64,000 bases of DNA from Acididesulfobacillus acetoxydans (GTDB lineage: Bacteria > Bacillota > Desulfitobacteriia > Desulfitobacteriales > Desulfitobacteriaceae): contig NZ_LR746496.1 in the NCBI RefSeq assembly GCF_902729405.1, positions 1,240,001 through 1,304,000 on the forward strand, in the 5' to 3' direction. Below, one piece after another: positions 48,121-53,372 of this stretch (within the stretch, counting starts at the first letter, position 1; the number at the start of each line of letters is the position of its first letter). The notes beneath the pieces are model-generated. The model was not told the origin of the DNA and ran no database searches. It was given only the letters and a program-made list of their open reading frames with translations. The position numbers and the translations under genes are program-made.

Positions 48121-49023
48121 GTGGGAAAATATAGGATCCTGGCGCTGGACGGGGGCGGGATCCGGGGGGCTCTCACCGCCGTACTCTTGACCCGGCTGCA
48201 AGAGGAGATTCCCGGACTCTTGGATGGGGTGGAACTTTTGGCCGGAACTTCGACGGGAGCCATTATTGCCCTCGGTTTAGCTTATGGGGTTTCACCGTCG
48301 GCCTTAAAGGACCTTTATCTTGAGGAGGGAAAGAGGATATTTGCGCCTAAACACTGGGGGCTGTGTCGGCCCAAGTATGATGCGGAGGGGTTGCATAAAG
48401 CGCTTGAACGCGTGTTTCCTCAGGATCTGAGCCTGCAGGATCTCAGGGTCCGGGTGCTTGTCCCCGCTTTCAGCCTCAATGACGTGCGGACCGGGACTTG
48501 GAGACCCGCCTTTTTTCATAATTTCCCCGGATCCTCTACCCGGCAAGAGAAGGTTTTGGATGTGGCCTTGGCCAGCAGTGCCGCACCGGTTTACTTTCCC
48601 TCCCACCAAGGGTACATCGACGGCGGGGTGGTAGCCGGTAACCCCAGTACGGCGGCCATCGCCGAAGCTATTCACGAGGAGCGGGGACGGCAGCAGCTCA
48701 AGGACCTTTGCCTGCTCTCCCTGGGGACCGGTGTCAATCCCGAAAAGATTGTCGCTGATACCTCCCGCTGGGGCCTTCTGGCCTGGATGTTCCACCGGCC
48801 CCCTGTTTTGCCCCTGCTCGAAATCCTTCTCAACGGAGTAGGTGAGGTGGATGATTACATGAGTGCCCAGCTTCTCAAGGAAAGATATTTTCGTCTGAAT
48901 CCGAGGCTTTCGGAACCGGTGGCGCTGGATGACGCCGGAAAAATTCCCGGCTTGATCAAGAGGGGCCGCACGGAGAATCTGGGTCCCGTCCTAAACTGGT
49001 TGGAGGATGTTTGGCTGGACTAA
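48121..49023 (+). CDS. Patatin-like phospholipase
   Basis: 300 residues from GTG behind GAAGGGGG. DGGGIRG forms the oxyanion hole, the nucleophile Ser is in GTSTG, and the catalytic Asp in DGG (YIDGGVVAGNPS). LASSAAPVYFPS is also characteristic. It should be a cytoplasmic acyl hydrolase. A small resemblance to CBASS-type patatin effectors exists, but no nucleotide cyclase or CD-NTase gene is nearby. Its end overlaps the convergent kinase gene by 4 bases. Confidence 0.92.
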   Translation: MGKYRILALDGGGIRGALTAVLLTRLQEEIPGLLDGVELLAGTSTGAIIALGLAYGVSPSALKDLYLEEGKRIFAPKHWGLCRPKYDAEGLHKALERVFPQDLSLQDLRVRVLVPAFSLNDVRTGTWRPAFFHNFPGSSTRQEKVLDVALASSAAPVYFPSHQGYIDGGVVAGNPSTAAIAEAIHEERGRQQLKDLCLLSLGTGVNPEKIVADTSRWGLLAWMFHRPPVLPLLEILLNGVGEVDDYMSAQLLKERYFRLNPRLSEPVALDDAGKIPGLIKRGRTENLGPVLNWLEDVWLD

Positions 49024-50819
49024 GACGGGGTAAAAACGGGCAGCCGTATGGAGAAAGTCGATCCCTTGCCGAGTTCGCTGCTGAGAGCCACCTCCCCCCC
49101 ATAAGCCTGAACTAAACTTCTGACGATGGCGAGTCCGAGCCCGGTGCCCGTATCGGGTGCTTGGGTTCTTCCCCCGCGGTCAAACCTATTCCAGATCGAG
49201 TCCCGCTCCTCCGACGGAATCCCCGGACCCTGGTCTTGTACGGAAATCTCGACCCAGCTGTAGCCGCTGCGGCAGGAGAGGATGATTTCCCCTCCGGGCG
49301 GTGAAAAGCGGAGAGCGTTGTCGAGTAAATTGAGAATGATCTGTTCCAAACGGTCAGTGCTGCAATCTACCGGGGGCAAGTTCGGCGGCAGGTCCAGGGT
49401 CAGTCGGACGGGCTTTTCCTGTGCGGCTGTCTCGGTTTGGTCCTTAATCAGGGACAGAACGTGGGGAACGGATACCTGTTCGTGCGGGAGCCCGCGGGAA
49501 CCGTCGAATTCAATCCGGCTCAGATCCAGAAGTTCGTTGACCAGGCTGCGCAAGCGCAGAGTTTCTTTGAGGATAGTTTCAAGATACCGTTTCTTCTGGG
49601 CTTCGTCGGTGATCACCTCGTCCAGTAAGGCTTCCGAATAGCCCTGCAGGTAAGAAAGAGGGGTCCGAAGTTCATGCGAGACATCTGAGATAAATTCGCG
49701 CCGCATTTCATCAAGACGCCGTTCTTTGGTGACATCGTGCCAAACGGCGACGGTTCCTCCACACTCTTGGTCCAGCATAAGCGGTGTAGTTTCCACTTGG
49801 AAGACTCTGTCTTCGACTCGGAAGTCACCCTTGTGAGGCACGGGATCGCATAAGGATTCCAAAAGCAAGGAATGCAGGCTGTCCGGCAAATCGTGGAGGC
49901 ACAAAGCGCACTCCTGGTCCGGTTCGGATTTGGGGATACCTTTCCCGGCGGGTTGCGGCGCCCTTGAGCCAAACTGTTTCATGGCCACACGGTTGGCCAT
50001 GACGATCTCCCGGTCCGGAGTCAGACTTAAAACGCCATCCGCGATGCTGGCCAGAATGCTGGCCAGCAGTTGGCGTTCGTGCGCGATCTCTCTGAGATTG
50101 AGCCGGATTTCCGTGGACAAAGTGTTGACGGACCGGCCCAGGGAGGAAAGTTCATCCGTAGAGCTGAGCGGCAACAGGCGGCTGTAGTTACCGGTGGCGA
50201 TATCCTTAATGGCCCGGTCCATTTCGACTACAGGGTTAGCAACCCGTCGGGCCACATAGAGGCCGAGGGGAAGAGTAAGGAGGAAGGATAGCGTCAGGCC
50301 CCAGCCGCTAGAAACCCTGACGGAGCGGCCGACCGCCTCGAGATAGGTCATAGGTTCAATGACGAAGACCCCGCCTATGATTTTTCCGTCCTTGCGAATG
50401 GGATAGGCCACTTTAAGAATGGGGTGGGTTTCGTAGGGAGCATTGCCGGAAAAAGCAATATGTCCGCCCCGGCGCAGGATGGCCATGTCAGCCTCCGGCA
50501 TGACATAGTGATTCCAATTGCGCATTTCATGAGTCGCCAGAAGCACGCGGCCGCTGGGGTCCGTCGCCACCAAATCGTAGTTGAGGACCGAGCCGAGCAA
50601 GGCGAAATCAGCCTGCCCCGCCTTGATGTCTGGCAGGGAAGCCAAGTGAGCGGCCATGCTGGAGGCGGTGTTGTTTAATTCCTCGCTCTCCTCGGCCGAA
50701 TACCCGTAATAAAAGTCATGCGTAGATTTGGCGAGTATGCCTCCGAAGATGAGCAGGACCAGGAAAACCCAAGCGACAATCACGAACCAGATTTTGCCGG
50801 CAAAACTGCGGAAAATCAT
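49020..50819 (-). CDS. PhoR/WalK-like sensor histidine kinase
   Basis: 599 residues. Helix near 10-30, external sensor domain about 35-170 (DLVATDPSGRVLLATHEM), second helix about 173-195, HAMP, a PAS-like domain (ILASIADGVLSLTPDREIVMAN) with a CALC motif (CALCLHDLP), HisKA with H in DVSHELRTPLSYL, ATPase N-box NLLDNALRFSP, DQGPGIP and GLGLAIVRSL. The regulator gene overlaps it by 4 bases. The CxxC-like cysteines in the PAS region could bind metal or act in redox sensing. Confidence 0.95.
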   Translation of the reverse strand: MIFRSFAGKIWFVIVAWVFLVLLIFGGILAKSTHDFYYGYSAEESEELNNTASSMAAHLASLPDIKAGQADFALLGSVLNYDLVATDPSGRVLLATHEMRNWNHYVMPEADMAILRRGGHIAFSGNAPYETHPILKVAYPIRKDGKIIGGVFVIEPMTYLEAVGRSVRVSSGWGLTLSFLLTLPLGLYVARRVANPVVEMDRAIKDIATGNYSRLLPLSSTDELSSLGRSVNTLSTEIRLNLREIAHERQLLASILASIADGVLSLTPDREIVMANRVAMKQFGSRAPQPAGKGIPKSEPDQECALCLHDLPDSLHSLLLESLCDPVPHKGDFRVEDRVFQVETTPLMLDQECGGTVAVWHDVTKERRLDEMRREFISDVSHELRTPLSYLQGYSEALLDEVITDEAQKKRYLETILKETLRLRSLVNELLDLSRIEFDGSRGLPHEQVSVPHVLSLIKDQTETAAQEKPVRLTLDLPPNLPPVDCSTDRLEQIILNLLDNALRFSPPGGEIILSCRSGYSWVEISVQDQGPGIPSEERDSIWNRFDRGGRTQAPDTGTGLGLAIVRSLVQAYGGEVALSSELGKGSTFSIRLPVFTPS

Positions 50820-51511
50820 TTTGGCACCTCAAATTTATAGCCGACTCCCCAAACGGTTTGCAGGTAGGGAAAAGGAGCGACGGCGTTCAGCTTTTCCCTG
50901 AGGTTCTTGATATGCACGTCGACCACGCGAAATTCCGCAAAATAGTTTTCACCCCAGGCCTGGGACATGATCTGTTCCCGCGAGAATACCTGGCGCGGGG
51001 ACTTGGCCAGGAAGGCCAGAAGACTGAATTCTTTAGGGGTCAGGATAATGGCTTGACGGTGCCATTCCACCCGGTGCAAAGCGGTGTCGATCAGGAGGTG
51101 GGGGTAATCCAGAGGCCCTCCTTCGGAGGCGGAAGGTGCGGAGGAGCGCCGTAGGACGGCTTTGGCCCGGGCGGTCAGTTCTCTCGGACTAAAGGGTTTA
51201 ACCAGATAGTCATCCGCCCCGCAGTCAAAACCGAGCAGGCGGTCTTCCACTTCTCCTTTGGCTGTCAGGAGCAAGATGGGAAGATTTTGCCGGGCGCGTA
51301 TCCTCTGGCAGAGTTCCAAACCGTTCATGCGAGGCATCATGATGTCCAGGATGACTAAATCAAAGGCCTCCCGGTTGAGCATCTCTTCAGCCTCGACTCC
51401 GTCGGCGGCTTCCCCGACCTCGAAGCCTGCATTTTCTAAGTAGACTTTAACCAGTTCGCGTAAGCCGGCTTCATCGTCCACCAACAGGACTTTTGCTCTT
51501 TCCTTCATCAT
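50816..51511 (-). CDS. PhoB-type (OmpR family) response regulator
   Basis: 231 residues. Receiver: LLVDDEAGLRE, phospho-Asp in LVILDIMMPRMNG, LLLTAKGE, YLVKPFSPREL; winged helix: LTPKEFSLLAFLAKSP, VDVHIKNLREKLN, VWGVGYKFE. ATG 51511 follows GAGGTG. The operon reads away from the cupredoxin lipoprotein gene; three 11-bp direct repeats in front of that gene are its likely target. Confidence 0.94.
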   Translation of the reverse strand: MMKERAKVLLVDDEAGLRELVKVYLENAGFEVGEAADGVEAEEMLNREAFDLVILDIMMPRMNGLELCQRIRARQNLPILLLTAKGEVEDRLLGFDCGADDYLVKPFSPRELTARAKAVLRRSSAPSASEGGPLDYPHLLIDTALHRVEWHRQAIILTPKEFSLLAFLAKSPRQVFSREQIMSQAWGENYFAEFRVVDVHIKNLREKLNAVAPFPYLQTVWGVGYKFEVPK

Positions 51512-51784
51512 CAACACCTCAAGTTCATAGGATTAAGCGGGATGGGGCGGGAACAACCGTGACGAGAGGGGTCGCTTAAAAACAAGTTCGGGGCCGGGGG
51601 AGGCGAGTGCGGGGTAAGGATAACCAGTCTGCTTGCTGAGCTCCTTGCCGCCGCACCCGCACGAAAGGCAGGTGCAGGCCAGGGTAACCAGGTTTCCCTG
51701 TTTTGCCTTCGGTAAAGAAAGTATTAAGATTAAGTATGGATGTGAAGGTGCGGTAAAGTCAAGTGAATACGGCTTGGGTCAATC

Positions 51785-51817
51785 ATTCTTCATGATTTCT
51801 TCATTGTTTCTTTATCA
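51785..51817 (+). promoter_or_regulatory. Three 11-bp direct repeats, probable PhoB-type operator
   Basis: ATTCTTCATGA, TTTCTTCATTG and TTTCTTTATCA in exact 11-bp register. PhoB-type regulators bind such tandem repeats in place of a -35. A weak -10-like TAGGAT follows at 51837. It lies 76 bp before the lipoprotein start, in the gap shared with the divergent regulator gene. Confidence 0.7.
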
Positions 51818-51892
51818 AAATCAAAAAAAAATCCCATAGGATCGTTTCTGCAGACATACTTCTGAAGAATTAGTCAAGGAGGAACGATCCCG

Positions 51893-52795
51893 ATGAAGAA
51901 AACCGTATTTCTGGCCCCAGCCGTACTGCTCTTGTCCCTGGGTTTGACAGCCTGCGGGACGACGACAGCCGCCTCGTCGACCCCTTCTTCGCCCTCCAAC
52001 GGCAAGACCTCAACCGCAGCGGCTTCCTCTCTCAAAACAGATGACCTTTACATGACGATCAAACCCGGCCTAAAATTGGGTTCGGACGGCAAACTGCATG
52101 ATTCTTTCTCACCCACGGATTTGACCTTCACGCAAGGGGTTCCCACCAAGGTGACCGTCTTAAATTATGACGACGGTTCCCACGATATTGTTGCCAAAGA
52201 CATGAATCTCGACCAGCAGATTCCAGGTTCCAAGAAAAAGGGTGTCCCTTCAGTGACGACCTTCACGGTGACAGCGACCAAGACGGGCGACTTCCATTGG
52301 GCTTGCGATGTGCCGTGTGACGGGGCGGCCCATCCCGACAAACCCGGTTCCAACAAAGGCTGGGCCATGAATCATGACGGTTATATGGCCGGGACCTTCC
52401 GGGTCGTGTCCCAACAACCTTCTGTGGAAAACGTGGCGATGACAGTGCTGCCGGGTACGAAGCTGGGCTCTGACGGCAAGCTGCACGATATCTTCTCGCC
52501 GGCTAATCTCACAATTCGTAAGGGCGAGACTAAAGTCACCGTCTACAACTATGACGGCGGTTCTCATGACTTTGTCTCTAAGGACTTGAATCTTAATGTG
52601 CAAGTGCCCGGACACAAGAAAAAGGGTGACCCGTCTGTGACCACCTTCATTATCAAAGCGGATAAAGCGGGAAATTATCACTGGCTCTGCAATGTTCCCT
52701 GCGACGGCGCGGCTAATCCCAACAAACCCGGCTCGGCCAAAGGTTGGGCTATGAGTCATGACGGTTATATGGCTGGCATTGTGCACGTCGAGTAA
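51893..52795 (+). CDS. Lipoprotein with two CuA-like cupredoxin repeats
   Basis: 300 residues. Signal peptide with lipobox LTAC (Cys21), a Ser/Thr linker, and two ~115-residue copies of one domain. In each, the order is His (97; 225), C-x3-C (138/142; 266/270), His (161; 289) and Met (165; 293). This is the ligand order of a CuA site (His, CxxxC, His, Met) though the second Cys and His are 18 residues apart instead of 3. The copies share GSDGKLHD, WxCxVPCDG and WAMxHDGYMAG. It is a surface-bound copper or electron-transfer protein by inference. AGGAGG precedes ATG. Confidence 0.85.
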   Translation: MKKTVFLAPAVLLLSLGLTACGTTTAASSTPSSPSNGKTSTAAASSLKTDDLYMTIKPGLKLGSDGKLHDSFSPTDLTFTQGVPTKVTVLNYDDGSHDIVAKDMNLDQQIPGSKKKGVPSVTTFTVTATKTGDFHWACDVPCDGAAHPDKPGSNKGWAMNHDGYMAGTFRVVSQQPSVENVAMTVLPGTKLGSDGKLHDIFSPANLTIRKGETKVTVYNYDGGSHDFVSKDLNLNVQVPGHKKKGDPSVTTFIIKADKAGNYHWLCNVPCDGAANPNKPGSAKGWAMSHDGYMAGIVHVE

Positions 52796-52989
52796 GGCAA
52801 AGCCGTTCAGTTTCTCCCGGGCAGCCTTGGCAACGGAACAAAGGTGTGGGCCCCGGGCGGATGCATCGGTTCTATTCGGGGGATCCACCGGATCAGTTCA
52901 AGGGTTACCGGGAATCCCCGGCGCTGGCGCCGAAGAGTCTCTGAAAAGTCTATCGGGTCTGTTCAGGGAAAAATCTATCGAATCTGTTC

Positions 52990-53014
52990 AAGCCGCAGAA
53001 ATGCGGCTTTTTTG
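52990..53014 (+). terminator. Rho-independent terminator
   Basis: AAGCCGCA-GAAA-TGCGGCTT followed by TTTTT; it ends the lipoprotein transcript, about 195 bp past the stop. Confidence 0.88.
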
Positions 53015-53123: not shown

Positions 53124-53258
53124 GCGTGTCAAGCATAACGATTAACCAGACGGTGAAATTTCGTTATAGGGGTAGCAAACGATGAAAATACCCGCGACGG
53201 AAGCCGCCGAAAACCGGGAGGATTTTACCTGCCGCCGCCGAAAAGTTCTAGTGAAGAG

Positions 53259-53372
53259 AGATGTGTACATGGGAAAAAGATGTGTACATGGAAAAGAGAT
53301 GTGTACATGGAAAAGAGATGTGTACATGGAAAAGAGATGTTTACATGGAAAAGAGGTGTTTACATGAAAAGT
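53259..53372 (+). repeat. Six tandem 19-bp units carrying ribosome site and ATG
   Basis: Unit AGATGTGTACATGGAAAAG at 53259, 53278, 53297, 53316, 53335 and 53354 (last two with small changes). Each AAAGAG is followed 8 or so bases later by an ATG. As 19 is not a multiple of three, successive ATGs fall in different frames. Only some are in frame with the regulator gene; the last ATG (53364) is the true start by context. Confidence 0.92.

Follow-up and report, generated by a model that had tools for sequence, protein, structure and literature searches.

A twin cupredoxin lipoprotein of Acididesulfobacillus acetoxydans as a probable copper electron carrier of a Rieske/cytochrome b-c complex

Electron carriers based on copper are usually linked to oxygen, photosynthesis, or denitrification. 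Plastocyanin and cytochrome c6, a copper protein and a cytochrome c, share one role downstream of a Rieske/cytochrome b complex, and the copper of nitrosocyanin is liganded by one Cys, two His, and one Glu. For comparison, the CuA center was defined by the ligand motif H ... C-x3-C-x3-H-x2-M, and the type 1 blue copper site by one ligand Cys that is followed, within a few residues of the ligand loop, by a conserved His. Among Bacillota, CupA of Streptococcus pneumoniae is a membrane-anchored cupredoxin with a bis-thiolate and Met-rich site (PMC7558416), and c550-c552 of B. azotoformans are lipid-anchored carriers of menaquinol-oxidizing bc/b6f complexes (PMC3475470). Here, in an acidophilic sulfate reducer, Acididesulfobacillus acetoxydans, and its relatives, a twin copper protein appears to do the work of a cytochrome c. 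The genus takes in Peptococcaceae bacterium CEB3, and the group inhabits metal-rich acid drainage (PMC10949509, PMC8982180). The literature on tandem cupredoxins, or on cupredoxin with Rieske proteins in this group, contained nothing on the twin cupredoxin in the texts covered. A comparison with plasmid records gave no match.

We analyzed a window of 64,000 nucleotides (1,240,001-1,304,000 of the 4.52 Mb one-contig genome), in which the protein and its surroundings are laid out as follows.

51893..52795, + strand: gene of the twin cupredoxin lipoprotein, 300 aa (open reading frame, Pfam match, AF2 model)
51953..51955, + strand: Cys21 in the putative lipobox LTAC (motif match only)
52031..52414, + strand: cupredoxin domain 1 (residues 47-174), with conserved H69, H97, C138, C142, M159, and M165
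52334..52357, + strand: 8-residue insertion in the ligand loop of domain 1 (about 148-155; placement approximate), missing in most relatives
52427..52792, + strand: cupredoxin domain 2 (residues 179-300), with conserved H198, H225, C266, C270, M287, and M293
52718..52741, + strand: 8-residue insertion in the ligand loop of domain 2 (about 276-283; placement approximate)
52990..53009, + strand: terminator-like hairpin 3′ of the cupredoxin gene (consensus match only)

The sequence-only reading had described two CuA-like cupredoxin halves on one membrane-anchored chain and had proposed a fold prediction and an HMM search of each half; both analyses returned cupredoxins. The two domains, 68% identical to each other, both matched Pfam Cupredoxin_1 (PF13473), with a whole-chain E of 3.7e-14, above the cut-off. 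AF2 modeled the whole chain at pLDDT 84, with the domain blocks mostly >90, as two beta-sandwiches after a disordered N-terminus, and domain 2 modeled alone reached 90.7. By their Greek-key beta-sandwich and profile match, both domains belong to the cupredoxin superfamily, and the lipobox in the disordered N-terminus would anchor the chain to the membrane. Structure comparison of both domains gave the best fold matches with nitrosocyanin (red copper; Z 13) and B. anthracis Cupredoxin_1 (4hcf; Z 12-13), which are both single-domain proteins. CupA and the CopA metal-binding domain followed at Z about 10, and the CuA domains of N2O reductase at Z 9-10. A PDB search with the family profile matched copper nitrite reductases, Cupredoxin_1, and N2O-reductase CuA domains; the latter are among the closest solved relatives of both halves. 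A 25-bp direct repeat (1.9 copies; window 52943-52990) lies downstream of the cupredoxin stop codon, ahead of the terminator-like hairpin.

Homologs were found in Alicyclobacillus, Neobacillus, Paenibacillus, and Bacillota MAGs. Nearly all of them have twin domains, so that two copies per chain, earlier called unusual, are the norm in this Bacillota cupredoxin family. The closest relative, CEB3 (G001), encodes a cupredoxin 95% identical to the window protein, and the cupredoxins of the window, G014, G037, and Neobacillus sp. PS3-12 formed one clade in the tree (support 94/94). Several variant forms were also observed. In Neobacillus sp. PS3-12 (L025:7456-8372), the twin cupredoxin adjacent to Rieske-cytochrome b genes consists of two ORFs with an ATGA overlap, the second having no signal peptide; a frameshift, a sequencing error, or coupled translation may account for the split. 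Contig C9 of G037 (L005:811-1884) encodes a twin-cupredoxin lipoprotein of 357 aa that has diverged: each domain has C-x3-C and two Met but no HD His. This paralog resembles a single-domain protein of G263 (L017:33-494). A single-domain relative in an Actinomycetes MAG (L041:3985-8342) adjoins a copper-type P-ATPase-like ORF and another cupredoxin-like ORF.

Residue conservation was then counted over 33 related cupredoxin domains. The window protein has in each half the order His97/225, Cys138/266-x3-Cys142/270, 18 residues, His161/289, x3, Met165/293, just as it had been described from the sequence. Conservation in the homologs divided this set. The His of GxH, both Cys of C-x3-C, and two Met, one in [AS]M and one following GY, were invariant (33/33), whereas the second loop His, at the H161/H289 position, was conserved in only 16 of the 33 domains, the others having Asn (8), Gln (8), or Glu (1). 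Moreover, the 18-residue spacer includes an insertion of 8 residues that is limited to the window's genus, domain 1 of G014, and Neobacillus sp. PS3-12. Because the loop His varies and these 8 residues are an insertion, the family departs from the CuA ligand motif: C-x3-C is there, but the loop is longer. The N-terminal HD-motif His (H69/H198) was invariant across the close cupredoxin family, with the most distant row, L017, seemingly aligned by gaps only and the diverged G037 paralog having no such His. The COX2 domain profile PF00116 listed no match to the window protein at E up to 1, and CoxB chains reached E about 0.6 at best against the cupredoxin family profile.

The twin cupredoxin thus shares with CuA of N2O reductase and cytochrome oxidase subunit II the cupredoxin fold, the early His, C-x3-C, and the loop-end Met. 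It differs in its variable second loop His, its longer loop, and its stand-alone twin lipoprotein form, and has beyond CuA an extra invariant Met and the conserved N-terminal His. Of the CuA reading, the fold and the kinship with N2O-reductase CuA domains therefore stand; the standard ligand set and a conserved 18-residue spacing do not, and as judged from the residues we would replace the label CuA with CuA-related, for a presumed copper site that is related but not identical. A true dinuclear CuA in each half, in which H161/H289 is the ligand and relatives tolerate its substitution, would fit the residue order of the window protein and the match of N2O-reductase CuA domains by both sequence profile and fold. 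Nevertheless, with Asn, Gln, or Glu replacing the loop His in 17 of the 33 domains, and with that His one residue too far from the Met in a longer loop, we regard it as highly improbable. The type 1 blue copper arrangement differs as well, since the family has two invariant Cys and a loop without an invariant His. Nitrosocyanin has one Cys, in contrast to the two Cys and two Met invariant here. CupA, a fold neighbor with similar residue types, shares the membrane-anchored cupredoxin of a Bacillota species, a Cys pair, and Met residues, whereas the twin cupredoxin has other genomic partners, two domains, C-x3-C on one loop, and conserved His. As far as sequence comparison goes, the conserved residues fully match no known electron-transfer copper site, and the Cys/Met/His set is distinct from CuA, type 1, and CupA sites. 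It is conceivable, although rather unlikely, that each domain holds a new type of copper site, possibly dinuclear, in which the HD His H69/H198 serves as the second CuA His and a Met is added; such a protein would be a two-site, lipid-anchored carrier displacing cytochrome c in anaerobic respiration.

The genomic neighborhood pointed to a function in electron transfer. In G014 and G037, the kinase and regulator genes are divergent to the cupredoxin gene, which is followed by Rieske and then cytochrome b with a C-terminal CxxCH domain. Neobacillus sp. PS3-12 has the same cupredoxin-Rieske-cytochrome b order without the window's type of kinase. The gap between the cupredoxin and Rieske genes is about 190-315 bp in these three, wide enough to make a single transcript uncertain, and most of the Alicyclobacillus and Neobacillus relatives examined have no adjoining Rieske gene, which counts against the explanation favored here. 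In the window, the next gene, past the terminator-like hairpin, encodes a sigma-54 activator, and in CEB3 it is a transposase-like ORF on the opposite strand. The physical linkage between cupredoxin and complex is broken in the window's genus.

Other kinase/regulator loci contained cytochromes. That of G011 has an LPXTG-type cytochrome c, a sortase, a lipoprotein cytochrome c, Rieske, and cytochrome b-c; that of G039 has the same first three genes and then the contig end; and in G041 only the LPXTG-type cytochrome c and sortase were visible. A small lipoprotein without a Pfam match lies upstream of other Rieske-cytochrome b pairs of the group, and its G003 copy has, by sequence, a CxxCH-like heme motif. 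The twin cupredoxin occupies the position held by heme c carriers in related operons, and it is therefore called an electron carrier; this is the main ground. There is a resemblance to the lipid-anchored c550-c552, in that G011 has a lipoprotein cytochrome c in the cupredoxin's operon slot, the difference being a copper-protein fold instead of heme c. Compared with plastocyanin and cytochrome c6, the present case concerns anaerobic Bacillota, a twin-domain lipoprotein, and two-component control. The replacement of cytochrome c is not strict, because G037 keeps an LPXTG cytochrome c elsewhere alongside its cupredoxin; mutual exclusion of the two was accordingly rejected. As a separate observation, the LPXTG-type cytochromes c at L053:1954-4113, L054:121-2312, and L073:1-1371 each come with their own sortase, with a lipoprotein cytochrome c beside them in L053 and L054 and Rieske-cytochrome b next in L053. 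These loci may represent cell-wall electron wiring in Bacillota.

We also analyzed the regulatory region, in which the two-component genes and promoter elements are arranged as follows.

49020..50819, − strand: HAMP-PAS-HisKA sensor kinase (PhoR/PnpS/WalK-like)
50816..51517, − strand: PhoB/OmpR-type response regulator, divergent
51786..51818, + strand: three 11-bp direct repeats, TTCTTCATGAT TTCTTCATTGT TTCTTTATCAA, the predicted site of the divergent response regulator
51837..51842, + strand: −10 element TAGGAT (TAnnAT), 23 nt after TTCTTT of the third repeat

The divergent pair and the three repeats before the gene, both noted from the sequence alone, were confirmed. None of 1000 dinucleotide shuffles of the window's intergenic region reached its tandem repeat score. 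Tested per locus, the score exceeded 1000/1000 shuffles at four loci, those of the window's genome, CEB3, G014, and G011, whereas 74/1000 shuffles reached it in G037 and 42/1000 in G039. The triple repeat was kept in register at the aligned loci, upstream of cupredoxin or cytochrome c alike, and the distance from the third repeat to TAnnAT was identical at all nine promoters. A composite pattern of three 11-bp repeats, 23 nt, and TAnnAT was scanned in 13 whole genomes and gave nine matches. Seven were the kinase/regulator locus itself, in 7/7 genomes with the kinase, and the remaining two lay directly 5′ of a Rieske-cytochrome b pair, in the window's genome (at 2.49 Mb) and in CEB3. The pattern was absent from all six kinase-less genomes, including two with the complex. 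As a control, the pattern was reversed, and this version gave no match in the 13 genomes. Since the pattern was derived from several of the nine promoters, the recovery of those is by construction; the independent points are the 2.49 Mb site, which was found by a repeat-only scan, the G041 site, and the lack of any other match. The site of this dedicated two-component system can thus be read in 13 genomes without stray matches.

In the window's genome, an exact scan found the composite promoter only before the cupredoxin gene and the 2.49 Mb Rieske-cytochrome b pair. This genome has three such pairs, all outside the window, and the promoters of the other two, including the nos-linked pair, have no composite promoter. 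Repeat-like sites at 751 kb and 3607 kb (3 mismatches), likewise without a composite promoter, were taken as chance. Because the composite promoter is common to these two loci alone, the cupredoxin and one particular Rieske-cytochrome b complex very likely form one regulon, although they are 1.2 Mb apart. The cupredoxin is encoded together with the complex by adjacency in G014, G037, and Neobacillus, and regulated together with it by a common promoter in the window's genome and CEB3, as would befit its electron carrier. The complex was present in every genome found with the kinase, and the likely functional partner of the cupredoxin is this Rieske/cytochrome b-c complex outside the window. Such a regulon of cupredoxin and complex is short and testable, and concerns one respiratory branch.

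The regulatory model proposed earlier, with copper or redox stress as the signal, was upheld in part. The repeats as a two-component site, conserved with the kinase and absent without it, agree with the model. Copper is unlikely as the signal because the two-component system also controls heme c operons: in three relatives, heme c genes are preceded by the same kinase, regulator, and promoter. In addition, conserved Cys are missing from the outer domain of the kinase, and just one of its His is conserved. A respiratory signal, or one from the envelope, appears more likely.

The same data bear on a role as Cu(I) chaperone or copper buffer, in which the Cys pair and Met would, like those of CupA, bind Cu(I) at the membrane and the protein would supply or sequester copper. 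The fold neighbors CupA (itself membrane-anchored, with its bis-thiolate and Met) and CopA metal-binding domain, the invariance of C-x3-C and two Met in the family, the metal-rich habitat of the group, and the copper-ATPase-like ORF beside one distant single-domain relative all speak for such a role. We consider it unlikely, because the regulon ties the cupredoxin to the Rieske-cytochrome b complex, heme c proteins replace it in relatives, and no copper exporter was found at the kinase/regulator loci read.

For an electron carrier, the question is then which acceptor it would serve. The window's genome encodes an NorBC-type reductase as well as a nosZ operon to which a Rieske-cytochrome b pair is linked; both the operon and the reductase have been reported for Acididesulfobacillus acetoxydans (PMC10949509). 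At L021 (genome 772-790 kb), the nosZ operon of this sulfate reducer ends in the Rieske-cytochrome b pair and has no two-component promoter. The sole COX1-type gene of the whole genome adjoins an NorC-like cytochrome and fits NorB, which bears out the earlier remark that no cytochrome oxidase is nearby. COX1-type genes were present in 7/7 genomes with the kinase (NorC-linked in the four read) and in 4/6 without it. The cytochrome-c-type NO reductase (cNOR) is one candidate acceptor; because COX1-type genes also occur in these four kinase-less genomes, their distribution is not evidence for it.

The cupredoxin could also be a dedicated donor to nitrogen-oxide reductases, cNOR or NosZ, and not a general carrier of the bc complex. 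Both enzymes are encoded in the window's genome, an NorC-linked NorB is found in G014, G037, and G039 as well, and lipoprotein carriers serve such enzymes in Gram-positive denitrifiers (PMC3475470). Yet nosZ is missing from CEB3, G014, and G037, all of which have the cupredoxin, a distribution that excludes NosZ as an obligate partner or as the general role. The nos-linked Rieske pair has no composite promoter, the COX1-type genes extend to kinase-less genomes, and norBC showed hardly any expression under nitrate or sulfate (PMC10949509). A dedicated donor of this kind is therefore quite improbable.

We thus favor, as the probable explanation overall, a copper electron carrier of a menaquinol-oxidizing Rieske/cytochrome b-c complex, in the place of cytochrome c. 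The operon structure, the common promoter, the predicted fold, and the conserved residues were obtained by computation; the copper binding, electron transfer, partner, and regulator binding to the repeats are what we infer from them. On the outside of the membrane, the two-domain copper protein, held by its predicted lipid anchor, would receive electrons from the menaquinol-oxidizing Rieske/cytochrome b complex, in which a c-type heme domain forms the end of cytochrome b, and would pass them to a terminal reductase, for which cNOR of the window's genome may be one candidate. It would fill the position of c-type cytochromes, in the way that cytochrome c6 can give way to plastocyanin. The divergent kinase and regulator would switch the cupredoxin on via the three 11-bp repeats beside the −10 element, and the same regulator would serve the matching Rieske-cytochrome b pair 1.2 Mb away.

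Further downstream in the window, a 19-bp tandem array of 6.3 copies (GAAAAGAGATGTGTACATG; window 53253-53371) has an ATG in each copy. It spans the annotated start (53280) of the sigma-54 PAS activator, the true start of which may be about 53365.
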